Positions 9,843-44,525 of a DNA stretch of 64,000 nt are shown piece after piece. The stretch is from assembly GCA_022750195.1 (NCBI GenBank), contig JAKIWE010000001.1:990672-1054671 (forward strand). Reading direction: 5' to 3'. The position numbers and the translations under genes are program-made. The DNA is from Thermoplasmata archaeon. Lineage in GTDB: Archaea; Thermoplasmatota; Thermoplasmata; Lutacidiplasmatales; UBA184. Position 1 is the stretch's first letter; each line of letters begins with the position of its first letter. Below the pieces are notes generated by a model. The model saw only the letters and a list, made by a program, of their open reading frames with translations. It did no database searches and was not told the DNA's origin.

Positions 9843-9871
9843 GGCGGGCCCCGCTGTTCACGCCACCGACC

Positions 9872-11016: not shown

Positions 11017-11069
11017 TGCTACGCCGCCAGAATTGGAAGTTCATGTAGTTCCCGCCCCTGGCTCCTCCC

Positions 11070-11627: not shown

Positions 11628-11723
11628 GGGAACTGGCCTCGGGGCCGCCTCGCGGAGCGGCCGGAGCTTCCCGCTCGCGAAGTCGTTCGTCAGGGCTTCG
11701 TGCCGCGAGCGGTCGGAAGCCAC

Positions 11724-12587
11724 CTAGGAGGTGGATCGTCCGCGGCGTCGGCGGTGCGCCTCGTGGGCCACCTCCTCGCGGGTCCACCGTCCTGCGTCGG
11801 TCCAGTACTCACGGATCCGCCGGGCCAACGTCCTATCGAACAGCGGGGGTAACGCGTGCCGAGGTCGGTCGCGATCGGGGACGAGCTTGGAGAGGCCGGT
11901 CGCGACGATGAACGGCACGTGCCAACGGGCGGCCGATTCCGCGAGCGCCTGGGTGCCGATTTTGTGCGAGATCGATCCGTCTCGGAAGAGGCTGTCCGCC
12001 CCGACGAGGACGAGGTCGGCGGGGGCGACCGCCCTGTCCCGGAGTTCGTCCTCGACGCCGACGGCACGGACCCCGGCCGCCCGCAAAGCTCGGCCGAACC
12101 CGGCGCCTTCCCCGCCCGGAAGGCTTCGCAAGACGGAGACGCGGCTCGGCGCCGCCGCACCTTTGAGCGACGTTAGGACCCGGAAGAGCGTAGCACTTCG
12201 GCTCAGGGTAACGACCCTCGCGTGCGGGGGAAACAGGTCGCGCGCCACGCGGGCGATCGCGGGAGGCTCTCGGTCGATCCGTCGGAGGAGCTGGACGCAG
12301 TAGGACCGGACGTCGGCGAGGAGCTCCCCGGGGGGCGCTGTCCGGGCACGGAATCTGAGCTCAGAGCCCGCGACCACGAACAGACCCATGGCGGGCTGGA
12401 TCTCGGCGAGGAGCCGCCCCCACCGATCCACCGTGCTCCGCTGGGCCTCGTGGGACGACCTCGCAAGCATCAGGGTGCCCTCGCGGACCGTCTCTAGCGC
12501 GGCTCGAGCGAGATGGCTCGCACCGTGGCTCCGATCACGACCTAGGCGCGCGAGCACGAGACCCCAGCGGTCGCTCGGCTCGCTCAC
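11724..12587 (-). CDS. IF-2B/MtnA/ribose-1,5-bisphosphate isomerase-like protein
   Basis: A 287-residue member of the family that includes eIF2B regulatory subunits, MtnA and archaeal ribose-1,5-bisphosphate isomerase. The hallmark C-terminal stretch is clear: DLVLVGADSLFRDGSISHKIGT, the last part being the usual NKIGT with His for Asn, followed by VPFIVATGLSKLVP. The N-terminal half is helical. The family shares a sugar-phosphate or nucleotide pocket. Sequence alone does not separate a translation role from a sugar-phosphate role. It is the last gene of the sugar-phosphate operon run, 75 bp after the glucoamylase gene. Confidence 0.75.
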   Translation of the reverse strand: MSEPSDRWGLVLARLGRDRSHGASHLARAALETVREGTLMLARSSHEAQRSTVDRWGRLLAEIQPAMGLFVVAGSELRFRARTAPPGELLADVRSYCVQLLRRIDREPPAIARVARDLFPPHARVVTLSRSATLFRVLTSLKGAAAPSRVSVLRSLPGGEGAGFGRALRAAGVRAVGVEDELRDRAVAPADLVLVGADSLFRDGSISHKIGTQALAESAARWHVPFIVATGLSKLVPDRDRPRHALPPLFDRTLARRIREYWTDAGRWTREEVAHEAHRRRRGRSTS

Positions 12588-12662
12588 GGGGGCTCCGCCG
12601 AAGGCGACGGGGCCAGACGAGCGCTCGGCCCCCCGCGTCGCCTCCCCCTTCGGAGGCGACGG

Positions 12663-15059
12663 CTAAGGCTCCACGCGCACAGCGTAGTCCTTCCCTTCCC
12701 AACTCCCGCGGCGGGGCCAGAAGAAGGTGAACGTGAGGGTGCTCTGCTCTCGTTCGCCCAGCCCCAAGTCAACGAACTCAAGTCCGAGCGCGGTGGAGGT
12801 CGACTCAACGTCGTCCACCGTGCCCCAACCGTCTCGGCTGACGTGGAGACGGAACGGCTCGGTGTTGAGAATTCGCAACCGCCCTCCGGCGTGGGCGATC
12901 GACGGTTGTCGGTTCATCTTCCAGATTTCGATCCGCTCCCGCGCCAGCCGACCGTCGCGGTAGCGCGCCGCGACCTCGGGGATGCAGCCAACGATCTCGC
13001 GGTCGTCGATCGACCGGAGCAATTTCAGGTACTCGGAGTGGGCCCAGAGGAGGGGCATGGCGGCGCCGGTGGGACGCCCCAATTGGAAGTGGCGGCCGGG
13101 GCTAGCCGGAAGGTCCCATACCTGTTCCGGCAAGAGCCCCGTCTCGCAGGCGAACCGTTCGAGGGCTCGGACGTACAGGGTAGGATCGTGCCCCGCCGCG
13201 AGCTCGTACAGCCCGCGTTCTCCCGTGAGCAGGGGCCAGGCCCGCCCCACGCCGAACCCGAGGTAAGGGCCCCCGTCGGCCTGTTCTCCGTAGCCGTCGT
13301 GATTGTACCGGTGCCACACCGGCCCGAACGGGGTCTCCACTTTCAGGAGTCGGTCGACGAGGCGGAGCGAGTCAACGATCACCGGGTCGTCGGGGGCGCG
13401 GATCCCGTACCGGACCAGCTCGAGGAATCCGGGGTCGATGATCTCCTTCGCCGGAAAGACGTTGGGCGACCCCGGAGGGAGGTTCGGGAGCTCGACGGTC
13501 CCCGTCTCCGGGTCCTCGTCCGGACGCGGGTCGTCGAGACGGACGGGACGGATTCGAATGTAGTGCCGGCGGATCGACGGGTCGAGCGTCCCGTGGTTCG
13601 TCACTGTCCAGACGTCGACGTGGCTCTCGAGGAAGTCGGCGTAGTCGAGGAGGAACCGCTCGGTGGCCCGGTCGCCGCGGTCCCTCGCGAAGACGCTCGC
13701 GGCGACGAGCGCCGCGATGTTCGCGGCGAGGGTGGACGGAGAGTAGCCGCTCAGCTCCTCCCACCGCTCCTGCTGCGTCGCGGGACCCCGGTCGATGAGG
13801 AACCGCGCCGCCCGCAGGATCATCGGGTACGGGTCGAAATGTTGGAGCGCTTGGTCGAGGCGGAGGCGGTGGGCGAGGAGGATCGGGAAGGAGACCTCAT
13901 CGAGCTGGACCCCGCGCCAGTACGCGTGCCCGTCCAACCAGAAGTTCTGCGGGAAGCCGCCGTCCCACTGCTGGGCGGCGGCGAGATAGATGAGCGCTCG
14001 GAGCGGCGTCTCGAGGTTCCCGGCGGAGACCAGACCGAGCGCCGTCTTCGCGAGGTCCCGCGTCCATACGAGGTGGTACCCGCCCCGGTCGTCGTCGCCT
14101 TTCGCGTTCCCCCAAGGGATCGAGAGCGAGGCGATGAACGCCCCGGGGAACGTCTTGTCCTCGTGGCCGACCAGGAGCGAGTAGCTCGCGTGGTAGAGGT
14201 TCCCGTGGTCGTGGCTGCGGGCGTCGAGCGGACGGATCCGTTGGCACGCCCGGTCCCACTGCAGGAGGAAACGCCGACGTAAGGCGTCGTAGGGAGTACC
14301 GAGGCTCTGGAGCAGCGTCGCCACGGCGCTCTCGAGGCTCTGCCCGAAGGCGAGCGCGAGCGTGAACTCACTTTCGGGCGGGACGGCGAGCTCCGCGGTG
14401 AGGGCGAGATTGCCGTCGAGCGCCCGGTCGAACTCCCAATCGAGCCGGTAGTTCTCCGCGAGGTCGGTCCATCCGTCGCTCCGTCCGACGTACCCGACCG
14501 AGAGGCGGGGGAGCGGCACGTCCGCGCCCAGCGCCAACCAGGTGCCGTGTCGTTCGGCGACGAGGATGCTCCGGTCGGCGAGCTCGACGACGTACCCGTT
14601 GTTGCCCGCGCCGCCGACGTCCAGGTGCGGGGCGAGCAAGGCGTAGAGGTGGAGCGGCGTCGGGAGACCCGGCCGGGGCCGGAAGGCGGTGCGGAGGAGC
14701 ACCGAGGGAAGGTGGGGATGGGCGATCACCTCCTTGGTGAGCGTATACCGATCCTCGGGATCGGCCGAGGTGACGCGGTACCCGAGGGCATGGTCGCCGA
14801 TCCGCTCGACGCGGCCGTTGAGGTGTCGCTTCTCTTCGTGGAAAAGGGCCTGCCCGTCCGAGACCAGGTACTGGAGATCCCGGATCTGCGGGTGGTCGAT
14901 CAGCGGGAAGTAGACCTCGGTCACGATGCCCCGCTGGAGGGTGAACCAGACCCGGCTGTCCGCCGAGTAGCTCGTCCCGACGCCCTGTTTGTCGCCGGCG
15001 CTCCAGCGCGGAGGGATCCCCGGGGCGCCGAAGGCGTCGTTGGTGCCGCGGAATCTCAT
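12663..15059 (-). CDS. GH15 glucoamylase/glucodextranase
   Basis: A 798-residue glycoside hydrolase. The N-terminal beta-sandwich of the glucodextranase type (GAPGIPPRW, GVGTSYS, SRVWFTL, EVYFPLIDH) covers about 1-270. The (alpha/alpha)6 barrel follows, with the catalytic acid in QLDEVSFP and the catalytic base region in GYGEQADGG...LLTGERG. Such enzymes release glucose from chain ends of starch or glycogen. There is no clear signal peptide, so a cytoplasmic role in using stored glucan is likely. Its ATG overlaps the TGA of pgl (ATGA at 15059-15056), so it is translationally coupled to the pentose phosphate genes. C-terminal residues include a further beta domain. Confidence 0.9.
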   Translation of the reverse strand: MRFRGTNDAFGAPGIPPRWSAGDKQGVGTSYSADSRVWFTLQRGIVTEVYFPLIDHPQIRDLQYLVSDGQALFHEEKRHLNGRVERIGDHALGYRVTSADPEDRYTLTKEVIAHPHLPSVLLRTAFRPRPGLPTPLHLYALLAPHLDVGGAGNNGYVVELADRSILVAERHGTWLALGADVPLPRLSVGYVGRSDGWTDLAENYRLDWEFDRALDGNLALTAELAVPPESEFTLALAFGQSLESAVATLLQSLGTPYDALRRRFLLQWDRACQRIRPLDARSHDHGNLYHASYSLLVGHEDKTFPGAFIASLSIPWGNAKGDDDRGGYHLVWTRDLAKTALGLVSAGNLETPLRALIYLAAAQQWDGGFPQNFWLDGHAYWRGVQLDEVSFPILLAHRLRLDQALQHFDPYPMILRAARFLIDRGPATQQERWEELSGYSPSTLAANIAALVAASVFARDRGDRATERFLLDYADFLESHVDVWTVTNHGTLDPSIRRHYIRIRPVRLDDPRPDEDPETGTVELPNLPPGSPNVFPAKEIIDPGFLELVRYGIRAPDDPVIVDSLRLVDRLLKVETPFGPVWHRYNHDGYGEQADGGPYLGFGVGRAWPLLTGERGLYELAAGHDPTLYVRALERFACETGLLPEQVWDLPASPGRHFQLGRPTGAAMPLLWAHSEYLKLLRSIDDREIVGCIPEVAARYRDGRLARERIEIWKMNRQPSIAHAGGRLRILNTEPFRLHVSRDGWGTVDDVESTSTALGLEFVDLGLGEREQSTLTFTFFWPRRGSWEGKDYAVRVEP

Positions 15060-15835
15060 GCGACGCCGGGCTCCGACGTCGCCGAGCGATCGACGCCGGG
15101 CAGCCCCTCGGCGGCGGCGGTGTCGAGGAAGACGCGTCGTTCCTCGTGGGCCTGGACCCGAGCCGCCGGTAGCGGGGGCTCCGGGCTGGGCAGGAGCACG
15201 CGCCGAACGATCTCGCGTTTCGCAGCCCCGGCCGCGATCAGGTAGACCTCTCGACTCGCGGAAAGGGCGGGCAGCGTCATCGAGAGGCGAGGGACGGTCG
15301 GCTCCCACGCGGGGGTCGGTTCGACGAGCGTCCAGCGGTTCGTGACGTCGAGCGAAGGTCGGCCCGGGAACAGCGAGGCGGTGTGTCCGTCCGGACCGAT
15401 GCCCAGGATCGCGACGTCAAAGAGAGGCGCCGCGGGAGGAAACGAGCCGGCGGAGAGTCCTCGAAGCGTCTCCTCCAATTCGTCGGCGGCGCTGGCCGGC
15501 GCGGCGAGCTCGCCCATCCAGCGGTGCACGTGGTCTCCTGGGATCGGGACGCGGGCGACGAACGTGCGGAACGCCGAGCCGAAGTTGCTCCGGGGATCCT
15601 CCGGGGGGACACACCGCTCGTCCCCCCAGAACAGCTCGGTCTCGGACCACGGGATCTCCCCCACCCCGGGGCCGGCCAGCCATCGGAAGAGGGGCAGAGG
15701 GGACGAGCCGCCCGGAAGGACGACGCGGAACCGGCCGCCCCGCGCGACCGAACGGCGGGCCGCCTCGGCGAGGCTGAGCCCCACGCGCGGTCCCAGCGCC
15801 TCCGCGTCGCGGACCACCTCGATGCGCGTTCTCAC
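15056..15835 (-). CDS. pgl: 6-phosphogluconolactonase
   Basis: A 259-residue protein of the bacterial SOL/DevB-type family. It hydrolyses 6-phosphogluconolactone to 6-phosphogluconate. Motifs: LPGGSSPLPLFRWL for phosphate binding, ELFWGDERCVPPEDPRSN, LGIGPDGHTASLFPG with the catalytic His, and a C-terminal AAGAAKREIV. The start is GTG 15835, which overlaps the TGA of zwf (GTGA), and its own TGA overlaps the next ATG. This coupling between G6P dehydrogenase and the lactonase fits joint function. It follows Zwf in the pathway as well as on the map. Confidence 0.92.
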   Translation of the reverse strand: MRTRIEVVRDAEALGPRVGLSLAEAARRSVARGGRFRVVLPGGSSPLPLFRWLAGPGVGEIPWSETELFWGDERCVPPEDPRSNFGSAFRTFVARVPIPGDHVHRWMGELAAPASAADELEETLRGLSAGSFPPAAPLFDVAILGIGPDGHTASLFPGRPSLDVTNRWTLVEPTPAWEPTVPRLSMTLPALSASREVYLIAAGAAKREIVRRVLLPSPEPPLPAARVQAHEERRVFLDTAAAEGLPGVDRSATSEPGVA

Positions 15836-17322
15836 GGACGCGACCACGGTTCTTCGTTCGGCTGGAGCAGCTGGTCGGCCGCCGACGGACCCCAGCTCCC
15901 GGCCGGATAGCCCTTCGGTGCGGGGGGGTGGGCGAGGAGTTCGGCGAACAGCTGCCACGAAGCTTCGACCTCGTCTGCGCGAACGAACAGCGTGGCGTCG
16001 CCTTCGAGGACGTCCAGCAGCAGCGTCTGGTAGGCATCCGGCAGGTTTCCGAACTGCTCGGCGTACCGGAAGCGCATCCGTTCGGTCCTCGTGGCCATCG
16101 CCTCGCCGGGGGGTTTGACCTCGAAGACGAGGTCGAACCCTTCGTTCGGCTGGAGGGTGATGACGAGCTCGTTCGAGTGAACGTCCTCCGGGTCGAGGTC
16201 CTTGAAGAACGTCACCGGCGGACGGTGGAAGTTGACGACGACCTGGGTGACCCGCTGCGCGAGCCGCTTGCCGGTGCGCAGGTAGAACGGCACCCCTTGC
16301 CATCTCCAGTTCTCGATCCGGAGCTGGAGGGCGACGAACGTCTCCGTGACCGACGACCCTGGGACCCCCTGCTCCTGGTGGTACCCGGGGACCGACGCTC
16401 CGTCGATCGTCCCGGCCTCGTACTGGCCGAACACAGCCTGCTCGGGCCGGACGGGAGCGATCGAGCGAAGGACCTTCACCTTCTCGTTCCGGATCGCCTC
16501 GGCGTCGTAGGCGGCCGGCACCTCCATCGCGACCAGCGACAGGAGCTGGGTGAGGTGGTTCTGCACCATGTCGCGCAGGGCGCCCGCGCGGTCGTAGTAG
16601 CCGGCCCGACCCTCCAGGCCTAGGTCCTCCGCGACGGTGATCTCGACCTTGCTCACCCGGTCCCGGCTCCACAGGCTCTCGAACAGGACGTTCGCGAACC
16701 GGAGCACGAGGAGGTTCTGGACCGTCTCTTTGCCCAGGTAATGGTCGATCCGATAGATCGACGGCTCGTCGAAGTACTGATGGACCAGTTGGTTGAGCGA
16801 CTTGGCGGAGTCGAGGTCGCGTCCGAACGGCTTTTCGATGACGATCCGGGTCCAGCCGGGGCCGTGGCCAAGGCCCGCTTCCCCTAGGCCCTGGATCGTC
16901 GGCGCGAATGCCTCGAACGGGAGCGCGAGGTAGAGCACCCGGTTGCCGTCGAGCTGATGCTCCTTCTCCAGGGCCGCGATCCGCTCGGCGAGGGCGCGGT
17001 AGTCGTCCGCGGCCCCGTCGCGGACCGGCTGGTAGAACAGCGTCGCGTCGCACCACGGGTCGATCGCATCCGGATGGAAGGGGCTGAACTGTTTCAGGCC
17101 CAGCGCGGCCCAGGACCGGTAGCTGGCGTCCTGGTAGTCGGTCGACCGGGCCGCGCCGAGGATCACGCTACCGGCAGGGAGGTGACCGTCGACGGAGAGT
17201 CCGTACAGGGCGGGCAGAAGCTTCCGGCGCATCAGGTCGCCGGTCGCGCCGAAGACGACCAGGAGCGGACGCGTCTCGAGCTTCCGTCCGACGGCCACGC
17301 TAGCCCTCGTGCTCGACGGCAT
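15832..17322 (-). CDS. zwf: Glucose-6-phosphate dehydrogenase, Zwf family
   Basis: A 496-residue enzyme oxidising glucose-6-phosphate to the lactone with reduction of NAD(P). The Rossmann motif FGATGDLMRRKL lies near the N-terminus, and the signature YRIDHYLGKE carries the catalytic His and substrate Lys. The length is full for the bacterial family. The start is ATG 17322, overlapping gnd by 23 nt, or GTG 17298, one base after the gnd stop; the second fits the tight packing better. This is the bacterial Zwf family and not the short-chain Azf type known from haloarchaea, which makes transfer from bacteria likely (inference). Confidence 0.94.
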   Translation of the reverse strand: MPSSTRASVAVGRKLETRPLLVVFGATGDLMRRKLLPALYGLSVDGHLPAGSVILGAARSTDYQDASYRSWAALGLKQFSPFHPDAIDPWCDATLFYQPVRDGAADDYRALAERIAALEKEHQLDGNRVLYLALPFEAFAPTIQGLGEAGLGHGPGWTRIVIEKPFGRDLDSAKSLNQLVHQYFDEPSIYRIDHYLGKETVQNLLVLRFANVLFESLWSRDRVSKVEITVAEDLGLEGRAGYYDRAGALRDMVQNHLTQLLSLVAMEVPAAYDAEAIRNEKVKVLRSIAPVRPEQAVFGQYEAGTIDGASVPGYHQEQGVPGSSVTETFVALQLRIENWRWQGVPFYLRTGKRLAQRVTQVVVNFHRPPVTFFKDLDPEDVHSNELVITLQPNEGFDLVFEVKPPGEAMATRTERMRFRYAEQFGNLPDAYQTLLLDVLEGDATLFVRADEVEASWQLFAELLAHPPAPKGYPAGSWGPSAADQLLQPNEEPWSRP

Positions 17323-18208
17323 GGCCGCCGAACTTCGCCCGCATCACCGCGAGGAGCTTGTCGCCGAACGATTCGGCCTCACGGGAGCGGATCCGCTCGA
17401 CCAGCGACAGGGTGATCACCGGCGCCGGCACGTCCAGGTCGAACGCTTCGGTCGAGGTCCAGCGCCCCTCGCCGGAATCGACGACGAACGGCTTGATGCC
17501 GGTCAGCTCGGGATTCTCGTGCAGCGCCGAGGCGGTGAGGTCGAGCAACCAGGACCGGACGACGCTCCCGAACCGCCAGATCTCCGCGACCTGCGCGAGG
17601 TCGAGCTCCATGGCGTCCTTGTGCTTGAGGATCGAGAACCCTTCGGCGTAGGCTTGCATCATGCCGTATTCGATCCCGTTGTGGACCATCTTCACGAAGT
17701 GGCCGGCCCCGGTCGGCCCGACCCGGCCCCAGCCCTTGTCCGGCGCAGGCGCGAGCGTCGTGAGGAGCGGCGTGATCCGCGCGACCGCGTCCACCGGTCC
17801 ACCGGCCATCAGGCTGTAGCCCTCGGCCAGGCCCCAGATCCCGCCGCTGGTCCCGACGTCGACGTACGGGATCCCCTTCGCGGCGAGGGTGGCGCTGCGC
17901 CGCAGCGTGTCCTTGTAGTAGGAATTGCCACCGTCGACGATCAGGTCTCCCGCGGCGAGCTGCGGGAGGAGCTCGTTGAGGGTCGCGTCGACCGGGTCGC
18001 CGGCCGGGATCATCAGCCAGAGGACGCGCGGGCTCGGCAGCTTCTGGAGCATCTCCTCGAGGGAGTAGGCGCCGACGACGCCCCGCGCCACCGCGGCATC
18101 GACGACTTCACGATGGCGAGCGGTGCCGACGACCGTGTGGCCCCCGCGCACCAAGCGTTCGGCCATGTTCGCTCCCATCCGTCCGAGCCCTACCAGACCC
18201 ACTTGCAC
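17300..18208 (-). CDS. gnd: 6-phosphogluconate dehydrogenase, decarboxylating, short form
   Basis: A 302-residue enzyme of the short 6PGDH class. It oxidatively decarboxylates 6-phosphogluconate to ribulose-5-phosphate and CO2. Motifs: MQVGLVGLGRMGANMAERL for nucleotide binding, IVDGGNSYY, DVGTSGGIWGL and GAGHFVKMVHNGIEYGMMQ with the catalytic Lys and the HNGIEY signature. Short forms are often NAD-linked, but the cofactor cannot be decided here. The gene starts 22 nt after the pgi stop and ends next to zwf, so all three are probably one operon. Confidence 0.93.
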   Translation of the reverse strand: MQVGLVGLGRMGANMAERLVRGGHTVVGTARHREVVDAAVARGVVGAYSLEEMLQKLPSPRVLWLMIPAGDPVDATLNELLPQLAAGDLIVDGGNSYYKDTLRRSATLAAKGIPYVDVGTSGGIWGLAEGYSLMAGGPVDAVARITPLLTTLAPAPDKGWGRVGPTGAGHFVKMVHNGIEYGMMQAYAEGFSILKHKDAMELDLAQVAEIWRFGSVVRSWLLDLTASALHENPELTGIKPFVVDSGEGRWTSTEAFDLDVPAPVITLSLVERIRSREAESFGDKLLAVMRAKFGGHAVEHEG

Positions 18209-18230
18209 GTTGATCCCTCCCGTTGGAACG

Positions 18231-19907
18231 TTACGATGCCGGCCGGTCCGCGACCCACCGTGCGATCGAGGCGACGAACTCGAGAGCGGAGCCGGTCGTC
18301 GCGAGCGTGATCACGGTGCGCCCCCTCTGCTCGAGCGCCGTGGCGTCGCCTCGACTCTGCGCGTGGATGAGCGCGCCGAACGTGAACTCGCTCCCCGGCA
18401 CCGCGAGGTCCGGCTTCGCCGCGTCGATGATCTGGAGGAATCGGCCGGTGGGCGGACCGCCCTTGTGGAGCTGTCCGGTCGAATGGAGGAACCGCGGCCC
18501 GTAGCCCGCGGTGGTCGGGACCTTCAGGCGGTCGCCGATGGCTCGCCGCAAGCCCTCGAGCGCCTCGTCCATCGCCTCCGAGGGTGCGAGATACGCCTGC
18601 AGAGCGACGTACTCCGACGGGAGTCGCGTGTCGAGGAGCTTCGTGAGGTCGGGCGAGGCGGAGGGGGAGGCGACGCCGGGGGCGGACGCCCCCGAGGGAG
18701 GTGCAGCGAGCACCTGACGGGCCAGCACTTTCGCATACTCTACGTCGGGCTGATCGAACGGGTGGATCCCGAGCACGGCCCCCGCGCTCGCGATGGCGAA
18801 CTCCCACCGGAAGAACTCCGCGCCGAGGTCGAACCGATCGTCCCATCGTAGGCGGACGGTCGGAATCCCGCGAGCCTCGAGCGCAGCGAGCTCCGGGTCC
18901 CGCGCGTGATCCTCGCCGAGCGCGAGGTCGACCACCACTCGGTCCTCGCCGTAGAACGCCGGGGTTCGGCGTGCTTCGGAGACGACCGGCACGAGCCCGT
19001 GACCCTCCTTGCCCGTGCTCTCCGCGATGAGCTGTTCCACCCAGATCGGGAAGGCGTCCAGCTCTGGCGAGGTCCACAAGGTCACCTTGTCGCGACCGCT
19101 GCGGCCCAGCTCGCCCAGGACCGCTCCGAGCTGCAGGCCCGGGTGCCGGTCCGCCGGGGTGGCAGGGCCGCAGGCGGTCGCCATCCGGCGCGCGGAGGCG
19201 AGGAGCCGATCGAGGTCGAGCCCGAGAAGCGCCGCCGGCACCATGCCGAAGACGGAGAGCGCCGAGTACCGCCCCCCGAGGTCCGGGGCGGCGGCGAACG
19301 TCGTCCGGAAGCCGCGGCTCCGTGCCAGCGCTTCGAGCGGCGTACCGGGGTCCGTGATCGCCACGAACCGCCGGCCGGGGGCCGACGTCGAACCGGCGAC
19401 CCGGTCCCAGAAGTAGCGGAACAGGGTGAGAGTCTCGGTCGTCGTACCCGACTTGCTCGAGACCAGGAAAACGGTCGTCGTCGGATCGATGGACGCCTCC
19501 ACGGCCCGCACCGCATCGGGGTGCGTACTGTCGAGCACCGCCAGGGACGGAAAGCCGGGCGCCGGTCCGAACATCCGTCCGAGGACCTCGGGTGCCAGGC
19601 TCGAGCCGCCCATGCCGAGCAGCACCACGTGGGCGGTACCGGCGTCCCGGATCTCGGCGGCGAACTCCCGCAGTTCGTCGATCCGGGGTGTGAGGGCCGT
19701 CGGCAAGGAAAGCCAGCCGAGTCGATCGACGATCTCCGGTCGGATCGAGTCGAACCAGACCGTCGGGTCCTTCTTCCAGACCCGAGCCCCCACCGATTGG
19801 GTCTGCCAGGACGAGAGACGGTCGGCGACCGATCGTTGCTCGGCGTCGGACGGGAGGGCCACCCGAGCGAGGAAGGAATCCGACGTGATGGACGTGGAGG
19901 GCGGCAC
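18231..19907 (-). CDS. pgi: Glucose-6-phosphate isomerase, like the Pgi half of Tal-Pgi fusions
   Basis: A 558-residue isomerase exchanging glucose-6-phosphate and fructose-6-phosphate. It shows VVLLGMGGSSLAPEVL, TTVFLVSSKSGTTTETL (the SKSGTT sugar-phosphate loop), GRYSALSVFGMVPAAL, WVEQLIAESTGKEG and IHPFDQPDVEYAK. Layout and wording match the C-terminal Pgi part of bacterial transaldolase-Pgi fusion proteins, but no transaldolase domain is present. It starts at GTG 19907 and is the first gene of the operon. A low-complexity Ala/Pro/Ser insert lies at about 400-420. The fusion relationship is my reading of the sequence, not a tested alignment. Confidence 0.88.
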   Translation of the reverse strand: MPPSTSITSDSFLARVALPSDAEQRSVADRLSSWQTQSVGARVWKKDPTVWFDSIRPEIVDRLGWLSLPTALTPRIDELREFAAEIRDAGTAHVVLLGMGGSSLAPEVLGRMFGPAPGFPSLAVLDSTHPDAVRAVEASIDPTTTVFLVSSKSGTTTETLTLFRYFWDRVAGSTSAPGRRFVAITDPGTPLEALARSRGFRTTFAAAPDLGGRYSALSVFGMVPAALLGLDLDRLLASARRMATACGPATPADRHPGLQLGAVLGELGRSGRDKVTLWTSPELDAFPIWVEQLIAESTGKEGHGLVPVVSEARRTPAFYGEDRVVVDLALGEDHARDPELAALEARGIPTVRLRWDDRFDLGAEFFRWEFAIASAGAVLGIHPFDQPDVEYAKVLARQVLAAPPSGASAPGVASPSASPDLTKLLDTRLPSEYVALQAYLAPSEAMDEALEGLRRAIGDRLKVPTTAGYGPRFLHSTGQLHKGGPPTGRFLQIIDAAKPDLAVPGSEFTFGALIHAQSRGDATALEQRGRTVITLATTGSALEFVASIARWVADRPAS

Positions 19908-19934
19908 GTTGGTAAGCGGGAGAACCGGGCACTC

Positions 19935-19941
19935 GTTATGT
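19935..19941 (-). promoter_or_regulatory. Probable TATA element of the pgi-gnd-zwf-pgl operon
   Basis: On the minus strand GCAAACTGACATAACG precedes the pgi GTG, with CATAACG centred about 31 nt upstream. The spacing suggests a leaderless or very short-leader mRNA. It is a weak match to the TATA consensus but the only AT-rich element in this divergent region. Confidence 0.4.
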
Positions 19942-20021
19942 CAGTTTGCGTACGCCCGGAGGTCGCCACCGAGGACGGCTCGCCCCCGGAACGGCGCCGG
20001 GGGTTTCAGGGCGCCAGTGTT

Positions 20022-22586
20022 ATGCCGAGTGGACCTCCTCGCCGCCCTTCTACGAGGGCGCCTGTGGGTCCGGCCTTGAAATCGTGGGCGGTCCGTTCGC
20101 TCATCCTGGGGGCGCTGCTCCTCCTTCTCGTACCCCCGATAGGGGGCACCGAATCCCGCGTCGCCCTTCCACCGCCGCATCCTCAGGCGGCGGCTGCCGC
20201 GTCGGGCTCGAGCTCGGCGGCCGCGGCCGGCCCGATTGGCGCGGAGGGGCAGCTCGCCAACCTCCGTTCGACCCCGGCGATCACCGGGGCGTACGACTGG
20301 GACCCCCAACCGCTCAACCTGTTCCCTCCGTTCCCGGTCGACGAGGTCGGCGGGCTCGGCGCCGCCATGGCATCGAGCGACCCGCTCGGAACGGTGGTGA
20401 TGTTCGGTGGCGAGGGGTCGCACGGGCTCACGAACCTCACCATCACGGACAATCAAACGACCGCGCTCTGGAACCTCCGACCAGCGACCCGGGCCCCGAG
20501 CCCTCGGGCCAACCTCTCGTTCGCTACCCTCCCGGATGGGAAGTTCGCAGTCGCCTTCGGCGGCGTCGTCAATCTGACCACGGGGCAGAGCGACAACGGT
20601 ACGTTCCTCTACGACTTCCGTAATCGAACGTGGATCAACGAAACCGGTCCCGTCGCTCCGCCTCCTCGGGAGGGGGCGGCGTTCGCGATCGACGCCTCCC
20701 GGAACGTCGCGATCCTCCAGGGGGGACGCGACCCCGATTATCTGGTCAAGGGCTCGGGTGCGTACGTGTTCTGGAACGACACGTGGGCGCTCAACCTCAC
20801 GACGTTCCGATGGACCCAGCAGGCCCCGGTGACGGCACCCCCACCGATGTTCGGGAGTTCGATGGTCTGGGTCCCGCAGACGGCCAACTTCCTCCTGTTC
20901 GGCGGCTGTGCGACCTTCTGTTCGAACGAACTTTACCAGTACATCCCCGGCGGGAATTGGACTTTGGCCCCGCAGTCCGGCGACGTCCCCTCCCCGCGCG
21001 CGGGCGCTTCCGAGGTCTGGTCACCGAACTGGAACATCACGATGATGAACGGGGGGTTCATCTGGGGGAACGATACCTACGCGCCGCTCGGCGACACGTT
21101 CATCTTCACGCCCTCGACCCATAGCTGGGACACGGTCGCAAGCGCTGGGGGCCCTTCCCCCCGGTTCGGTTCACCGGCCGCATTCCTGAATGCGAACAAC
21201 TGCCCCGGGATGTTCGTCGTGGGCGGGAGCACGGCGTACTCACCGCCCCCGGCCGACGGCTGGTTCCTCGACGAGAACCCGGACGTCCAGCTCGGATGCA
21301 ACAACTGGGGCGGGGATGAGGTCGGAGGGTCGACGGGTGGCGGAGGCGTGGGCAACTGCCCGGTCGGTGCGAACACGAGCACCCTCTCCGTCCAGGTACT
21401 CGACCGAGCGACCCACCTCGGTCTGGTCGGAGCGGTCGTGAACATCACGGGCTACTGCAGTCTCCAGCTCACCACGCTCGCTGGCGGGTTCGCGAACTTC
21501 ACGGACCTACCAAACGAGACCGTCCGAGTGACGACCTCCTTCCCGGCATACCACCTCAACGTCACCTACGCCCTCCTGCCGGTGCCCACAGGCCGTCTTG
21601 TCGTGGAGATGGACCGGTACCCGTCCCTGACGGTCCACACCGTCGGGACGTATGCGATCCAGGGGGAGGTCGCCTTGCCCGGGGTCCCGGTGTTCTACGA
21701 TTCGGTGCTAGGCCCCGACCTCCTGGGGAGCTCGGACGCCAACGGCTACCTGCGGATCGCCGTCCTGCTCGCGACGGAGGGACCGACCCACTTTTTCGCG
21801 AACGTGGCGGGGTACGCGAACGCCTCCGTCCCTGCGTTCGTTCCGTTCACCGGACCCGTCAACGTGACGCTCGACCTGCTGTCGTACGGGGGGTTCGACG
21901 TCCACGTGCTCCGCGACCCGGGAGGTCCGTCGATCCCGCGCGCGGTCGGCACGATCACGCCGGTCGGATTCGGCGCCTACGGAAGTCCGTTCGACTTCGC
22001 CACGGACGCCCAAGGCTGGTTCAACGTGAGCCTGCCGCTATCGAACTACTCGGTCAACGCGTCGGCGCGGGGCTACCTCCCCAACGGCACCGGGGTCGCG
22101 ATCTTCCACGGGTGGGTCAACGACACCGTGGTCGTGCTCCCTCTTCCGCTGCTGTACGGCGCCAACGTGAGCGTGCGCTTGATCGACGCCCGGTCCCACC
22201 TGCCCATTGCCGGTGGTACGGTGACGATCGACCGACGACCTCCGGCGTCGACCGGGCCGCTCGGCTGGGCGAATTTCTCCGACCTGCTACCCCCGGGACG
22301 CGCCGTCGTGCTCGGAGCTGCGCCCGGTTATTTCAACAACTCCACCGCGGTCGACCTCGAGTACCGGGCCATTCTCGCCGGAGTCCGACTCGACCTTATC
22401 CCGGTCAGTGGCTGCCCCTCCAACTGCCCACCGCCGGCCAATCTCACCGGCAGCAGCCCGTTCCGCCTCCTTCCGTCCGGAGGGATCACGCTCGAGCTGT
22501 TCCTGCTCGCCCCGCTGCTCCTCGCGCTCGCGGGGGCCGCGTACGCCTGGACCTTGCGTCGGACGCCGTTGCCGCGGTCGGGGTAG
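20022..22586 (+). CDS. Kelch-type beta-propeller surface protein with C-terminal anchor
   Basis: An 854-residue exported protein. A signal/anchor helix lies at about 26-45. Residues about 85-430 contain Kelch-like blades (VVMFGGEGSH, FAVAFGGVV, NFLLFGGCA, MFVVGGS). Residues about 455-810 contain carboxypeptidase-regulatory-like beta-sandwich repeats with NVTL-type sequons. A final transmembrane helix lies at about 820-842 with a basic tail. The function is unknown; such proteins bind glycans or partners at the cell surface. The open frame runs far upstream across pgi, but ATG 20022 is chosen because that part lies antisense to pgi and hydrophobic signal features begin here. Divergent from pgi. 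Confidence 0.82.
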   Translation: MPSGPPRRPSTRAPVGPALKSWAVRSLILGALLLLLVPPIGGTESRVALPPPHPQAAAAASGSSSAAAAGPIGAEGQLANLRSTPAITGAYDWDPQPLNLFPPFPVDEVGGLGAAMASSDPLGTVVMFGGEGSHGLTNLTITDNQTTALWNLRPATRAPSPRANLSFATLPDGKFAVAFGGVVNLTTGQSDNGTFLYDFRNRTWINETGPVAPPPREGAAFAIDASRNVAILQGGRDPDYLVKGSGAYVFWNDTWALNLTTFRWTQQAPVTAPPPMFGSSMVWVPQTANFLLFGGCATFCSNELYQYIPGGNWTLAPQSGDVPSPRAGASEVWSPNWNITMMNGGFIWGNDTYAPLGDTFIFTPSTHSWDTVASAGGPSPRFGSPAAFLNANNCPGMFVVGGSTAYSPPPADGWFLDENPDVQLGCNNWGGDEVGGSTGGGGVGNCPVGANTSTLSVQVLDRATHLGLVGAVVNITGYCSLQLTTLAGGFANFTDLPNETVRVTTSFPAYHLNVTYALLPVPTGRLVVEMDRYPSLTVHTVGTYAIQGEVALPGVPVFYDSVLGPDLLGSSDANGYLRIAVLLATEGPTHFFANVAGYANASVPAFVPFTGPVNVTLDLLSYGGFDVHVLRDPGGPSIPRAVGTITPVGFGAYGSPFDFATDAQGWFNVSLPLSNYSVNASARGYLPNGTGVAIFHGWVNDTVVVLPLPLLYGANVSVRLIDARSHLPIAGGTVTIDRRPPASTGPLGWANFSDLLPPGRAVVLGAAPGYFNNSTAVDLEYRAILAGVRLDLIPVSGCPSNCPPPANLTGSSPFRLLPSGGITLELFLLAPLLLALAGAAYAWTLRRTPLPRSG

Positions 22587-22640
22587 GGCCGGACCCCGAC
22601 CGAACTCGACTCCCGAGGAGAAAGAAGGCATGCGAGGTTT

Positions 22641-26106: not shown

Positions 26107-27089
26107 TCGGCCGCGCGCTCCGCCTCGCTCTGCTCGCTCCCGCGTTCGTGTATCCGATGGTCCTCTTGCTCGCAGGGATCCGGCCCCTCTCCGTGGCCAC
26201 CCTCGCCCTTTCGGTCGTGATCGCGCTTCCGATCGTCGCGGTGGTCCGGGGGAACCTGCTCGCGCCCCTGGTGGGTCTCTCGGGTCTCATGATCGGCTTC
26301 GTCGGGCTGATCACCCTGCTGACGCCCGGAACGCCGTCAGGCCTCGGCGCGGACCTGGTCGTCGCCCTCCTCCTCGGGGGATTCCCTTGGCTGTTGGCCG
26401 TAGCCGTCGTCCTAGGAGACCACCCGGCCGCCGGCCTTCTCGGGTTGAGCGTGGGACTCCTTGGGGCCGTGTCCGTTTTGGCCGCGCTACCGAACGCGTG
26501 GACCGCGAGCGACTCCTCCTCCGTGTTCGTCGCGCGGTGGTACGCCACCGGCGACCAGCAGTTCGGACACCTCGGCGAGGCGCTCGTCGGGCGCGGGTTG
26601 CAGACGGCGACCACCTTCCCGTACGAGACCGCGGTCACCCCGTTGCTCGTGGGCCTCGCGATCGTGGCGGTGGCCGGTCTCCTCCTCCCGTGGTTGCAGC
26701 CGTCGCCGGTCGGATTCCGCTCTCTGGGCTCGGCGCCCCGTCGGGACCTTGCAGCCCCCCGGAGGATCGTTCCGTGGCCGTCGAGTCGGATCCTCCCGCC
26801 CCCCGCCTCCGCCCCGGTCGTCGGCCCGGGAGCCGGGCTGGTTCCCGTGAGCGGCGCGCTGATCGCGACGGGCGGCTTCGCCGCCGTGGCCCTGCTGAGT
26901 CCTGCGAACGCGTTCCTCGCGATCGCCGCAGGTGCGACGGCGGTCGTCATCGTACTGCTCGCGCTCACCTTCAGCGGGCCGGCACGGCGCCCCCCAGCCC
27001 CGACCTCCGCGCCGGCGCGGGGTCCGGCGGCTACGACGAGCGTGGGCGGACGAGGCGTCGAGCTCGCTCGACCACCTTCTCCACCGTGA
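26103..27089 (+). CDS. Multi-spanning membrane protein of the MoxR operon
   Basis: A 328-residue protein with about seven or eight hydrophobic segments: four or five in residues 8-140, one near 185-205 and two near 245-295. The C-terminal tail is Pro/Ala-rich. No family recognised. The start is GTG 26103, overlapping the DUF58 stop (GTGA). Its last 59 bases overlap the 3' end of the convergent transketolase gene. The role is presumably tied to the MoxR/DUF58 pair. Confidence 0.7.
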
Positions 27090-29061
27090 ACCCGAGCTCG
27101 GCGAGCACGACCTCCCCGGGCGCGGAGGCACCGAATCGGTCGAGGCCGAGCACGTCGCCGGAGCTCCCCACGTACTTCCACCAGCCGGCCGTCGCGCCGG
27201 CCTCGATGGCGAGCGCGGGCAGACCGGGAGGGAGCACCTGGTGCCGATACGCGGCGGGCTGTTCGTCGAAGACCGTCGTCGACGGCATCGACACGACTCG
27301 GGTTGCGATGGAGAGTTCGGAGAGCGCCGTCGCGGCGCGGACGGCGAGCGAAAGCTCCGAGCCGGTCGCCACGAGGATCACCTCCGCGGGGGACCGCGGG
27401 GACTCGACGAGCACGTAGCCTCCCCGTTGGACGCCTTCCACGACCCGCTCCGCCGGGACGTCGAGCGTCGGGAGCTTCTGGCGGGTCAACACGAGGGCGA
27501 CAGGTCCGGCCCGTCCCAACGCGAGGCGGTAGGCGCCCACCGTCTCGTTCGCGTCTCCCGGGCGGATGACGGTCATCCCGGGCATCACGCGGAGGCTCCA
27601 GAGATGCTCGACGGGCTGGTGCGTCGGGCCATCCTCGCCGAGCCCGACCGAGTCGTGGGTGAAGATGTGGAGCGCGCGGGCGTGCATCAGAGCCCCGATC
27701 CGGAGCCCCGGGCGAGAGTAATCGGCGAAGCAGAAGAAGGTCGCACTGAACGGGAGCAGGCCCCCGTGCATCGCGAGGCCGTTGACGATGGAGGTCATGG
27801 CGTGCTCCCGGACACCGAAGTGGAGGTTCCGCCCCGTTCCGCCGTCGACGCCGAAATCCCCGAGGCCGTTCAGGTACGTCTTCGTGGAGGGATTGAGGTC
27901 CGCGGAGCCTCCGACCAGCGCCGGGATCCGAGACGCGAGGAGGTTGAGGAGCTTGCTCGACGCGTCCCGCGTGGCCACGGCGCCGTCCTTCGCCGCGAAG
28001 CTGGGAAGTCCTGCGTCCCATCCCGGGGGGAGCGTCCCTCGGACGGCCGCGTCGAAGGCGTCCGCGAGCTTCGGGTCCGCCGCCCGGAGGGCCTCCCTTC
28101 GGCCGCTCCACTCCCGAACCCAAGCTTCGCCCCGCGGGACGGCGAGCGCCAACCGTGCGCCGGCGGCCTCGGGAACGAGGAACGTCGGCGTCAGGGGCCA
28201 GCCGAGCTTCTTCTTTGTCGCCTCGGTCCCGGCGGGGCCGAGCGGCTCTCCGTGGGCTTCGCGCGTGTCCTGGACGGGGCTACCGTAGCCGAGGTGCGTC
28301 CGCACGCTGATGAGCGACGGCCGCTCGGCTTGCGCGAGCGCAGCGCGGAGCGCGGCGTCGATCGCGTCGAGGTCGTTGCCGTCCTCCACGCGCTGGACGA
28401 ACCAGCCGTACGCGCGGAACCGCTCGAGCACGTCCTCGGTGAACGCAAGGTTCGTGCCCCCCTCCAGCGAAACGTGGTTGTCGTCGTACAGGTAGACGAG
28501 CTTGCCCAGCCCGACGCGGCCGGCCAGCGAGGCTGCCTCCGACGCGATCCCCTCCATGAGGTCGCCGTCGGAGACGATCGCGTAGGTGCGGTGGTCCACG
28601 ATCTCGGCGCCGGGCCGGTTGAACCGGGTCGCCAGGAGACGCTCGGCGATCGCGAGGCCCACGCCCATCGCGAATCCCTGCCCGAGAGGCCCCGTCGTGA
28701 CCTCGACGCCGGGAGTGTGGCCGACCTCCGGGTGGCCGGGCGTCTTGCTCCCCCACTGCCGGAACCGTTGCAGCTCCGACATCGGAAGGTCGTAGCCGGT
28801 CGTGTGGAGGAGCGCGTACAGGAGCGCCGAGCCGTGGCCCGCCGAGAGGACGAACCGGTCCCGGTCCGGCCAGTCCGGACGTTGGGGGTGGTGTCGGAGG
28901 AACCGGGTCCAGAGGACGTAGGCCATCGGCGCCGCCCCGAGGGGGAGCCCAGGGTGGCCGGATTTCGCCTTCTCGACCATGTCGACCGAGAGGAACCGTA
29001 GCGTGTCGATGCAGAGGAGATCGAGCTCCGGCGACGTACTCGGTGCGGCCTCCTCGACCAT
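27031..29061 (-). CDS. tkt: Transketolase, single-chain
   Basis: A 676-residue thiamine-diphosphate enzyme moving two-carbon units between sugar phosphates. It is full length, with the N-terminal ThDP site ([34 protein letters not shown]), a central pyrimidine-binding domain ([29 protein letters not shown]) and a C-terminal transketolase domain. Many archaea use a split two-subunit transketolase; this is the undivided bacterial style. It starts 2 nt after the ROK kinase stop, so it is co-transcribed with glucokinase and GH15. The C-terminus overlaps the convergent membrane protein gene. Confidence 0.94.
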
Positions 29062-29063: not shown

Positions 29064-30074
29064 TCAGGCTCTCCCCCGCACGCGGTGCTGCGCGCCGGCG
29101 GCCCCGTGCCGGTGTCGCGCGCTTAAAGAGGCGCCCACGACCACCGACTCGTTCCCGAGCCGGGCGGGTACGACGCGAACGACCTTAGCGGCGGGCGGCT
29201 GGGCCCATCGACGGACCGCCCGGTCGCTCACGCCGACCCAGTGGGGCGCATGGTCGATGAGACCCCCGCCGAGCACGATGCGCTGCGGGTTGAACGCGTT
29301 GGTGAATCCGACGAGGCCGTCGGCGAGGAACCGGGCGGAACTTCGATCGATCTCGGACGCGAGCGGGTCCTTCTTACGGCGGGCCTCGTCCACGGTCGCG
29401 GCGGAGATCCGCGCCGCCTTCCCGGCCAGTCGGACCAGCGTCCTACCGGCTAGCGGGTCGGCGGCGACCGCCTCCTGCGCCCGTCGGGCGACCGCCCAAC
29501 CTCCGACGTACGCCTCGAGGCATCCGCGGTTCGGGCAGTGACACTTCCGCCCCCCGGCCACGAGCATCGTGTGGCCCAGTTCGCCGGCGGCGTTGCTCGC
29601 GCCCTCGAGAAGTCGATCGCCGCTCACCACGCCTCCGCCGACGCCGGTGCCGACGAAGATCCCAACTACGTTCGACCAACCCCGGCCGGCCCCGTGGGCC
29701 CACTCGGCGAGCGTAGCCGCCCGCACGTCGTTCACGACCGATACCTCCAACGAGAGTCGCCGGGAGAGTCGTTCGCCCAGGGGGAACTCCTTCCACCGGA
29801 GGTTCGGCGCGTAGTGAACCCGGCCGGTGCGTGCGTCGACCTGGCCGGCCACACCGATCCCCGCCGCGACGGGGGTAGCGTTGCTCGTCGACAGGGTCGT
29901 CCCGGTGCAGGCCTCGATATCCTCCAAGACGGCGTCCGGACCCAACCGGGCCCGCACGAGGCGGCGCGCAGCGCCCGAGAGGCGACCGCGAGCGTCCACG
30001 ATCGCCGTCGCGACCTTCGTCCCGCCCAGGTCGATGCCGAGGATCGGGGGGCCGCCGGCGCTCGGCCGCGTCAC
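29064..30074 (-). CDS. ROK-family sugar kinase, probable glucokinase
   Basis: A 336-residue ROK protein. The ATP-binding start is [26 protein letters not shown] and [12 protein letters not shown] follow. The catalytic region and zinc motif are ELGHTML and [13 protein letters not shown]. The neighbours are glucose-releasing GH15 and transketolase, so glucose phosphorylation to glucose-6-phosphate is the likely role. There is no HTH domain, which argues against a repressor. GTG 30074 overlaps the GH15 TGA. The last 25 residues are basic and variable. Confidence 0.85.
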
Positions 30075-31936
30075 TCGTCGGTCGACTCCCCGCCGCTCAG
30101 CGCGCGATGGTACTTGTGCACCACATCGACGAAGGTCGAGTGCGACCAGGTCAGGGGCACGGCGCTCTTCGGCTCCCCGGTGACGGCGTCGATCTGCTCG
30201 GGCAGGAGGAGGCTCGGGGTCGCGTGCGCGACGACCCACTCGATCAGCTCGCGACAACGCTCGACCTCGCCCAGGTTCAGCCGCGCCTCGGCGAGCCAGA
30301 GCGTGCAGAGGATCCACGGATTCTCGCGTCCGTAGTAGGCGTCGTCCTCGAAGCGGGCGAGCCCGCCGACCTTCGAGTTCCACAAGCGCTGCTCGATGCC
30401 GTCCACCACGTGACGGGCCCGCGGGTCGTCCCACGCGAGCAGTCCGAGCTTGAGGGCGAGCAGGATCGACGAGTCGAGGCGAGCGTCGTCCGGCTTGATC
30501 GACCGGCGGAACCGCTGATGTTCCTCGTCCCAGAGGTGCTTGAGCGCCGCGGTGTGGACGGCGACGCTCGCCTCACGCCACCGAGTAGGGTCCTTGCCGA
30601 GCTCGAGCGCGATGCGCGCCGCGCGCTCGAGCGCGTGTCCCACGACCGCGACGCTGTACGTATCGACCGCCTTCCTCTCCTCCCACAGGTCGAAGCTCTC
30701 CTTCGGGAGGCCGGTCGAGGGGTCCCGGAACTCGGTCAGGAAATTCGCCGCCTGTTTGACCATCGGCCAGAAGGCGAGCAGCGCATCGAGGTTGGTGCGC
30801 CGCTTGAAGTGGTGCCAGACCGCGGCGATGACGGTTCCTGTCTGGTCGATCTGGAGGAAGGGGGGCGGGTGCCAGGTACTCCCGATGCTCCCGTCCGGGA
30901 AGTGGCGGTGGACGAACGACCCGTCCGGCCGCTGGCAGAGGCTGGCAAACTCGAGGAACCGCTCGGCGTGGTCGTAGAGGCCGGCCTCGTCCATCGCCTT
31001 GCTGATGTAGCCGCCGTCGCGCCACCAGCAGTAGTTGTACGTGTCGCCCCCGACGGCGAGCGAGCGGGTGTCCGGCGACGCGACGATCGACCCGTTCAGC
31101 CCGCAGGAGTGGCGCAGCGTGAGGACGCTGGACTTGTAGAGCTGCCGGCCCCGCTCGCTCAGCCCTTGGGACAGGCGTGGGGGATGGCGGGCGACCCAGG
31201 TGCGCCAGAACGCCTGAGCTTCCCGCTCGAAGCGCGTCGGGTCGCCGTCCCAGACGTAGTGGTGGAGCTTGTGGATCGCCTCGGGCGAATCGCCCATGCC
31301 GACGAAGATCCGTACGGTGCTGTCGGAGCCCGGCTTGACGCTGACGTCGAACTGCATGACGCTGTCCGCCGCCCCGTGGCTGATGTCGCGGCCGTCGAGG
31401 ACACCGTCCTCCGCGTCGACGTAGGTCCCCTTGAGCCCCTTGAGCGTGTGCTCCCCGCACACCGCCCGCGTGAAGGTGGGGATCCCGTAGAATTCGAAGT
31501 AGAACGAGCGCTTGTAGTGGACGACGCTCTGGAAATCCGGGTCGCAGTACGCCGTCTCCTGATAGAGCGACTCGGCGATGTTCAACGACTGGTAGGAGAA
31601 GAGCCGGAGCTCGCGGGGCCGGTCCGAGCGGAACCGCACCAGCCGAATGATGAGGTCGTGGTTCGGGTGGACGAAATCCTCGACCGTGATCGACAGTCCG
31701 TCGTGGCTCCAGACGGACCGCGGGGGGTGGCCGGGGTCGGGAAACTCGGGCGACAGATGGAAGGCGCCCTGGTCCCGGAGCCACTGGAACTTCCGCTCGC
31801 CGACCTCGTAGAGGCCCAGTCGGGTCTCCCGGAGGTGTTGGAACTGTCCCGGGTAGGGATAGAACAAACCCGCCCATTCCCCGCTCTCGTCGATCGTGAC
31901 GAGAATGCGACCGTTCCCGGTGAGTTGGGTGATCAT
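30071..31936 (-). CDS. GH15 family glucoamylase/trehalase-like hydrolase
   Basis: A 621-residue enzyme, shorter than the other GH15 gene in the window. It begins MITQLTGNGRILV as GH15 proteins of the glucoamylase/trehalase branch do. The beta domain (about 1-250) is followed by an (alpha/alpha)6 barrel with YCWWRDGGYISKAM, the acid in SFDLWEERKAVDTYS and the second Glu in DAVTGEPKSAVPLTWSHS. It releases glucose from alpha-glucans or trehalose; the substrate cannot be fixed from sequence. An in-frame start at 32053 exists, but the domain starts at ATG 31936. There is no signal peptide. First gene of the GH15-kinase-transketolase operon. Confidence 0.88.
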   Translation of the reverse strand: MITQLTGNGRILVTIDESGEWAGLFYPYPGQFQHLRETRLGLYEVGERKFQWLRDQGAFHLSPEFPDPGHPPRSVWSHDGLSITVEDFVHPNHDLIIRLVRFRSDRPRELRLFSYQSLNIAESLYQETAYCDPDFQSVVHYKRSFYFEFYGIPTFTRAVCGEHTLKGLKGTYVDAEDGVLDGRDISHGAADSVMQFDVSVKPGSDSTVRIFVGMGDSPEAIHKLHHYVWDGDPTRFEREAQAFWRTWVARHPPRLSQGLSERGRQLYKSSVLTLRHSCGLNGSIVASPDTRSLAVGGDTYNYCWWRDGGYISKAMDEAGLYDHAERFLEFASLCQRPDGSFVHRHFPDGSIGSTWHPPPFLQIDQTGTVIAAVWHHFKRRTNLDALLAFWPMVKQAANFLTEFRDPSTGLPKESFDLWEERKAVDTYSVAVVGHALERAARIALELGKDPTRWREASVAVHTAALKHLWDEEHQRFRRSIKPDDARLDSSILLALKLGLLAWDDPRARHVVDGIEQRLWNSKVGGLARFEDDAYYGRENPWILCTLWLAEARLNLGEVERCRELIEWVVAHATPSLLLPEQIDAVTGEPKSAVPLTWSHSTFVDVVHKYHRALSGGESTDE

Positions 31937-32258
31937 TCCTCCCGGCCCGAACAGATTCCCTCCCGGAGACGGATAACTCTTCGCCCGTGGCGGGCCGAAC
32001 GGGCGGGACCGCCCAAGGCTGAGGACGGTTGGCTCCACCGTGCGGCGGGCCATCCCCCCGCTAGCCAGAGTTTGCCCTGGTTCGCGGACAGCGCCGCCGG
32101 GCGCTCCCCCGCCGGGTGCGAAACCATCAAGGAGGGGACCGCCGTCGGAGCGCCCCCGATTGGTGAGTGGGTGCGGTGATCGTGGCGAGTCCGGCCGGCC
32201 CCGACACGCTCCCTTTGCGTAGGCGCTCCGTGACGCGCGTGACGGAACTGAGGGGGAG
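31937..32258. promoter_or_regulatory. Divergent intergenic region between GH15 and glucan synthase genes
   Basis: These 322 bp separate two divergent sugar operons and hold no gene I can support. For the minus strand, GCGAAGAGTTATCC (about 31971-31984) is a plausible BRE/TATA 35-40 nt before the GH15 ATG. For the plus strand, the purine run GAGGGGGAG ends directly at the ATG of the GT4 gene; it is too close to be a normal ribosome site. No clear TATA box is visible on the plus side. Confidence 0.35.
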
Positions 32259-44518: not shown

Positions 44519-44525
44519 GCGGACG

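Follow-up and report, generated by a model that had tools for sequence, protein, structure and literature searches.

A probable bacterium-derived oxidative pentose phosphate operon in the genome of a Lutacidiplasmatales-type soil archaeon

Introduction

Does a Thermoplasmata archaeon possess a complete oxidative branch of the pentose phosphate pathway, and if so, where did the genes come from? The question is raised by pgi-gnd-zwf-pgl, four minus-strand genes running head to tail from 19907 to 15056 (coordinates re-read from the sequence) of a 64,000-nucleotide stretch of assembly GCA_022750195.1, positions 990,672 to 1,054,671 of contig JAKIWE010000001.1; this whole stretch is called the window below. 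The four genes are those of a phosphoglucose isomerase (Pgi), a 6-phosphogluconate dehydrogenase (6PGDH; Gnd), a glucose-6-phosphate dehydrogenase (G6PDH; Zwf) and a 6-phosphogluconolactonase (Pgl). We hold it to be very probable that they form a functional operon for oxidative pentose phosphate metabolism, derived from bacteria and carried on the main chromosome of a soil archaeon of the Lutacidiplasmatales type.

The original prediction for this locus started from the view that archaea largely lack the branch. A 2015 survey of 83 archaeal genera recorded G6PDH in none (0%) and 6PGDH in 27% (PMC4518329), but the view needs qualifying, as both enzymes have since been reported from Halobacteria, Pacearchaeota, Thaumarchaeota and Asgard archaea (PMC8506132, citing Maturana et al. 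2021), and complete pentose phosphate pathways from two Nanohaloarchaea and two Woesearchaeota (PMC5864196). Classical G6PDH is already reported in other archaeal phyla, and the pathway itself is not new. Among the open-licence papers listed by our searches, none reports this operon for Thermoplasmata or for archaea. The founding paper of the order treats glycolysis and a bacterial-like pfk, and the word "pentose" occurs nowhere in its main text (PMC9287336), nor in PMC12220078; the relevant passages of PMC10354927 and PMC12892359 name the non-oxidative route alone.

Results

A complete oxidative branch in one run of genes

Each of the three oxidative enzymes exceeds its curated cut-off, so that the branch is complete, as had been predicted: Zwf scores 562.8 bits with TIGR00871 (cut-off 400.6), Pgl 181.2 bits with TIGR01198 (124.45), and Gnd 437.2 with NF007161 (271) and 368.4 with TIGR00872 (297.2). 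Zwf is the only match to the G6PD_C family in the whole genome; it carries PF00479 and PF02781, and Pfam finds G6PD_N and G6PD_C only, not the short-chain dehydrogenase fold of the haloarchaeal enzyme. We take its RIDHYLGKE stretch to be the active-site motif. Pgi reaches 616.8 bits with NF007080, the model of the bifunctional transaldolase-isomerase Tal:Pgi, which is below the cut-off of 712, and a Pfam search found no TAL_FSA/transaldolase domain in it, so it is not of the bifunctional kind.

The genes are tightly packed. Between pgi and gnd there are 22 nt, the TAG of gnd is 1 nt from the GTG of zwf, and zwf and pgl overlap by GTGA; zwf may start at this GTG (17298) or at an alternative in-frame ATG (17322), with its stop side at 15832. 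All three junctions had been predicted and are confirmed in the sequence, and coordinates and model scores likewise bear out the single minus-strand run of short Gnd, Zwf and SOL-type Pgl. Only the extent was misjudged: the four genes from pgi to pgl are present, but the prediction ended one gene early, since the stop of pgl overlaps by ATGA with the start of a gene for a GH15 enzyme, so that the run extends beyond pgl. The IF-2B-family gene that follows may belong to the operon too, and pgi-gnd-zwf-pgl-GH15-IF-2B could be a single transcript.

The archaeal host

The window lies on a contig of 1,221,932 bp (C11) in a Thermoplasmatota genome of 2,448,124 bp and 52 contigs. It encodes an EF-1 exchange-domain protein of archaeal (small) size and an STT3-domain protein, and its thiolase (62378-63559) has close matches, at 73-83% identity, in 31 of the 36 other members of the genus, and some match (paralogues included) in all 61 genomes searched. 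Of 455 loci we kept 80 named ones; among these the closest Zwf, 80% identical, is that of SubAcS15-120 (locus L002), which PMC9287336 includes among its Lutacidiplasmatales assemblies. The L002 locus is colinear with 8768-24224 of the window over 15.4 kb, with four nucleotide blocks of 68-76% identity. The size of the contig within an archaeal genome and the colinear second assembly make a chimera unlikely, and the archaeal nature of the contig, on which the original prediction hung, is thereby upheld.

Distribution and gene order among relatives

Zwf is rare in the phylum. A G6PD_C search matched 17 of 389 sampled genomes: 14 in the window's family, six of these in its genus, and three in a single genus of a distant family, where one match (G164) is a 54-residue piece at 31 bits. 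With the window Zwf as query, 21 of 61 genomes matched, every one among the 37 genomes of the genus (its own included); none of the 24 others did, either in the same order (0/3) or in the same class (0/21). In 14 control genomes, four of them archaeal, the nine matches were all bacterial. By title, 74 of the 80 named loci kept are bacterial and six Thermoplasmata, and the closest bacterial Zwf among them is 62-63% identical to that of the window.

Gene order was read by tblastn at 33 loci of the family, 10 of which are too short or cut for the full order. In 12 it is tkt-Tal-pgi-HAD-gnd-zwf-pgl, tkt being the transketolase gene, and two Acidobacteriota loci, L005 (Blastocatellia) and L019 (Acidobacteria), have Tal-pgi-HAD-gnd-zwf-pgl, preceded in L005 by rpiB. 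Tal:Pgi is one protein in the family locus L129 (NF007080 score 1175.8, over 712) and in L005 (1273.1), the two loci in which the fusion was verified. Two family loci (L037, L044) keep the HAD gene without Tal; seven read tkt-pgi-gnd-zwf-pgl, three of them (L058, L124, L146) headed by a ROK-family kinase gene; and L133 (genome G157) reads GH15-tkt-gnd-zwf-pgl, without pgi. The window and L002 share pgi-gnd-zwf-pgl-GH15-IF2B, without Tal domain and HAD. The window's tkt is separated from the operon, 7 kb upstream, while tkt adjoins the operon in 22 of the 33 family loci. Because L005 and L019 share the Tal:Pgi-HAD-gnd-zwf-pgl order with 12 family loci, the operon appears to have been transferred as a unit, and the order shared with bacteria argues for this more than sequence similarity alone.

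In the distant genus (g128), loci L138 (G266) and L139 (G311) have the same four functions in the order pgi-gnd-pgl-zwf, plus a weak tkt-like match. Their Zwf is about 40% identical to that of the window and forms a long outgroup branch; this cluster was probably acquired separately.

Gene trees compared with the genome tree

For the trees, duplicate loci from one genome place were used once (the longest) and places covering <60% of the query were excluded; also left out were L099-L101 (Zwf), L074 (Gnd), L177 (EF-2), L138, L139, L062, L099 and L101 (Pgl) and L138 and L139 (Tkt). In the quick Zwf tree of 106 rows, a branch with a Shimodaira-Hasegawa-like approximate likelihood ratio test (SH-aLRT) value of 93 separates the 30 family archaea from the rest, and a careful tree, in which 22 bacterial loci out of the 74 were included, keeps all 30 together (97/85; bootstrap not settled). 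The family archaea also stand on one branch side in the trees of Pgi (96/88), Pgl (quick tree, 99) and Tkt (97/98, with six bacterial rows).

Within the family, the operon does not follow the genome. In an EF-2 tree of 29 rows the window genome and SubAcS15-120 (100/100) stand inside a set made up of the genus and its near relative g25 (100/98), and the window EF-2 is 83-88% identical to that of 15 other genus members. Yet the window and L002 are set apart from the 28 remaining Zwf of the family (97, starred; 100/99, starred, in the careful tree) and from its 29 remaining Gnd (98/91, starred); in both trees the rest of the genus splits between two more sets, one of which also holds other genera. 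Forcing genus and g25 together gave p 1.7e-5 for Zwf, p 0.0044 for Pgi and a borderline p 0.056 for Gnd; the groups were drawn from genome group codes and the EF-2 tree, and the gene trees were known before testing, with L058 assigned to the genus by a 207-residue EF-2 piece (92% identity) and L037 and L046 to other genera by the EF-2 tree. Simple vertical inheritance within genus and g25 is rejected for Zwf and Pgi. From this conflict with EF-2 we conclude that members of the family exchanged the operon or took it up on more than one occasion. The predicted acquisition thus stands as regards bacterial-type genes and their transfer as an operon, but the window copy was not simply inherited vertically within its genus.

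Some results weigh against the picture of a bacterial operon taken into the family. The Zwf branch with the value of 93 carries no star, the window Tkt is a long branch (0.67), and the best Gnd tree, which needs two changes, does not unite the archaea in a single clade and has the bacterial L065 joining them (94/91); a single archaeal Gnd clade is not rejected (p 0.49). As to the donor, the bacterial sample comes from a single pattern scan with the window's own Zwf, and the trees carry no inferred root.

Cofactor loops of Gnd and Zwf

Where the second strand of its nucleotide fold ends, Gnd of the window reads T29-A30-R31-H32, with no acidic residue; Ala30 stands where NAD+-dependent short Gnd have theirs. 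Among the 30 readable of 31 archaeal rows the site is Ala in 28, Ser in 2 and Asp in none, and the next residue is Arg in 29. Asp occupies the site in 25 of 32 bacterial rows, both g128 rows have Asn-Arg, and across the Gnd tree the state changes between acidic and non-acidic at least six times. Because L065 joins the archaea and carries Ala-Arg, the non-acidic state of the archaeal enzymes may predate the transfer.

In the Thermotoga 6PGDH, the substitution N32D raised the Km for NADP+ 460-fold, and kcat/Km with NAD+ relative to that with NADP+ went from 0.0015 to 1 (PMC5090862); in our own alignment N32 falls on Ala30 of the window Gnd. For Zwf, Arg50 of the Escherichia coli enzyme binds the 2'-phosphate (PMC4807051). 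Our alignment of this loop shows, in 28 of the 33 archaeal rows, an Arg and then Arg, His or Lys (two rows are unreadable). The window itself has Arg-Ser, a pair also found in 23 bacterial rows. Ala or Ser at the Gnd site leads us to predict the use of NADP+, and both dehydrogenases are predicted to make NADPH. A different source of reducing power, which had been suggested for this archaeon, is in our view a fair prediction from the Gnd loop, and it stays a prediction.

Other observations pull in the opposite direction. L002, the nearest relative of the window, has Leu in place of Arg after the Ala; seven of the 32 bacterial Gnd rows (L065 included) are non-acidic as well; TIGR00872, the second model that the window Gnd exceeds, is named as NAD+-dependent; and the Thermotoga enzyme is of the long-chain kind. 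In addition, the three solved short Gnd chains that were compared by alignment keep the Asp, and one is deposited as NAD(+)-dependent.

Discussion

How the operon may have arisen and what it may do

We suggest that a bacterial cluster of the Tal:Pgi-HAD-gnd-zwf-pgl type entered the family and was then joined to tkt, after which copies were rearranged, lost and passed between genomes. The form present in the window and SubAcS15-120 would be a divergent one that has neither the Tal domain nor the HAD gene and that ends in GH15. In such a cell, alpha-glucans would be cleaved to glucose by GH15 enzymes and the glucose phosphorylated by the ROK kinase, with Pgi connecting fructose-6-phosphate and glucose-6-phosphate. 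Zwf, Pgl and Gnd would then carry a flux from glucose-6-phosphate to ribulose-5-phosphate and CO2, both dehydrogenases reducing NADP+, and RpiA, Rpe, Tkt and Tal would recycle the pentoses.

A possible objection is that bacterial DNA was simply binned with an archaeon. The listed contamination of the genome, 5.57%, lends this some room, but the contig makes up half of the genome and carries archaeal genes, the thiolase has close relatives through the genus, a second metagenome assembly is colinear, related operons occur in many genomes of the family, and the operon has a GC content of 70.1% compared with 69.3% for the window; we reject a chimera, which would be extremely improbable. Only slightly better placed is an ancestral archaeal pathway that was lost elsewhere. 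Both dehydrogenases are described from other archaea (PMC8506132), but the sparse occurrence in the phylum, the empty result for order and class outside the genus, the purely bacterial matches among controls that included archaea, and the bacterial identity of most of the nearest loci make this very unlikely.

More serious, if still on the unlikely side, is the possibility that the version in the window and SubAcS15-120 came from a bacterium independently of the version in other family members. These two stand outside the other family Zwf and Gnd while their EF-2 is inside the genus and its near relative; their operon differs in having no Tal domain or HAD gene and, in the window, a tkt that lies apart; and placing them with L003-L005 in the Zwf tree (p 0.168) or with L004-L005 in the Pgi tree (p 0.25) is unrejected. 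Set against this, the best Zwf, Pgi and Pgl trees keep the family archaea on one branch side, and the nearest bacterial Zwf among the loci kept is distant, as given above. As for function, the operon might serve catabolism, making NADH for respiration rather than supplying NADPH, as the adjoining GH15 genes, the name of TIGR00872 and the Asp of the solved chains would suggest; the absence of an acidic residue from every readable archaeal Gnd, with Arg beside the site in nearly all, renders this rather improbable. Returning to the operon of bacterial origin, a bolder version of it we put forward tentatively, with slightly less than even confidence: a mobile cassette exchanged repeatedly within one family, its Gnd fixed in the NADP+ type near the crossing between domains, NADPH added and HPS kept. 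It would count three divergent versions of the operon in a single genus and, if true, would mean that NADPH supply was added to a lineage that keeps the gene of HPS, an enzyme of the ribulose monophosphate (RuMP) route.

The pathway is carried by part of a family of acidic-soil archaea, 12 loci having tkt and the Tal domain in the run. Nature thus provides a case in which to ask whether a central pathway, once transferred, requires a change of cofactor in the recipient, and how frequently close archaeal species swap such operons.

Relation to known systems

The closest counterparts are the clusters of Blastocatellia L005 and Acidobacteria L019, which resemble that of the window in enzyme families, order, close packing and short Gnd. 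The window differs in lacking the Tal domain, the HAD gene and the rpiB of L005, in ending with GH15, in its non-acidic Gnd cofactor loop and in its archaeal host. F420-dependent G6PDH belongs to a different family from canonical Zwf. The soil Thaumarchaeota that have it, with copies in Gagatemarchaeaceae, are acidic-soil archaea like our host (PMC10640624). Haloferax volcanii, as described in PMC8506132, is alike in having an archaeal oxidative branch with 6PGDH, but the haloarchaeal G6PDH is an unrelated short-chain dehydrogenase while that of the window is of the canonical family. The enzymes of Pacearchaeota, Thaumarchaeota and Asgard archaea are also described as oxidising glucose-6-phosphate, and the list of G6PDH/6PGDH phyla in PMC8506132 does not include Thermoplasmatota.

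The wider pathway and its neighbourhood

Transaldolase, Rpe (ribulose-5-phosphate epimerase) and RpiA are all present in the genome, so that with the transketolase of the window (Table 1) the enzymes downstream of the oxidative branch are there. RpiA and transaldolase are encoded on the same strand of another contig, away from the window, with both genes inside a stretch of under 8 kb (C32, 1970-9525). Neither Edd (TIGR01196) nor Eda (TIGR01182) has a match in the genome, which is 95.65% complete; thus no classical Entner-Doudoroff exit is seen, and we reject this role for 6-phosphogluconate.

The genome encodes an HPS homologue that scores over its cut-off. Such a homologue occurs in 44 of 61 genomes searched, and a match at any level in 50. 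By hand count, HPS matches occur in 15 of the 21 genus members in which Zwf matches and in 11 of the 16 in which it does not, many of these genomes being incomplete and one Zwf match (G020) a 36-residue piece. Since HPS is common with or without Zwf, its displacement by the oxidative branch is rejected, and since the homologue is retained, the branch looks like an addition rather than a replacement of the HPS gene.

Table 1. Genes of the operon and its surroundings in the window
Feature	Position	Strand	Description
IF-2B-family gene	11724..12587	-	75 nt past GH15; order kept in L002
GH15 glucoamylase-type gene	12663..15059	-	Glucodextranase N domain; order kept in SubAcS15-120
pgl	15056..15835	-	6-phosphogluconolactonase, Glucosamine_iso/SOL kind
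zwf	15832..17298	-	Canonical glucose-6-phosphate dehydrogenase; carries RIDHYLGKE
gnd	17300..18208	-	Short 302-aa 6-phosphogluconate dehydrogenase; cofactor loop T29-A30-R31-H32
pgi	18231..19907	-	Phosphoglucose isomerase, PGI half of Tal:Pgi (PRK09533) family, without transaldolase domain
tkt	27031..29061	-	Bacterial-type transketolase; TIGR00232 815.9 (over 682.25)
ROK-family sugar kinase	29064..30041	-	TIGR00744 199.9, under cut-off 260.35; start codon not fixed
Second GH15 enzyme	30071..32053	-	Upstream of ROK and tkt

The ROK-family kinase is likely a glucokinase, and the second GH15 enzyme could be a trehalase, an amylase or a glucoamylase. At 30071-34843 the minus-strand genes for this enzyme, the ROK kinase and tkt face plus-strand genes for a glycosyltransferase (GT4/GT5-like) and a GH57 enzyme. 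With these genes beside it, the operon stands in a glucan-handling neighbourhood, and 30071-34843 is possibly a cluster for glucan storage and mobilisation.

Other features of the window

The STT3-domain protein is the N-terminal part of a single 2222-aa frame (55045-61713) whose tail is carboxypeptidase-regulatory-like and SdrD-B-like, an unusual size for an oligosaccharyltransferase. At 43856-45179 two adjacent genes, the first with an AIM24 domain, have similar-looking starts and may be a tandem duplication.

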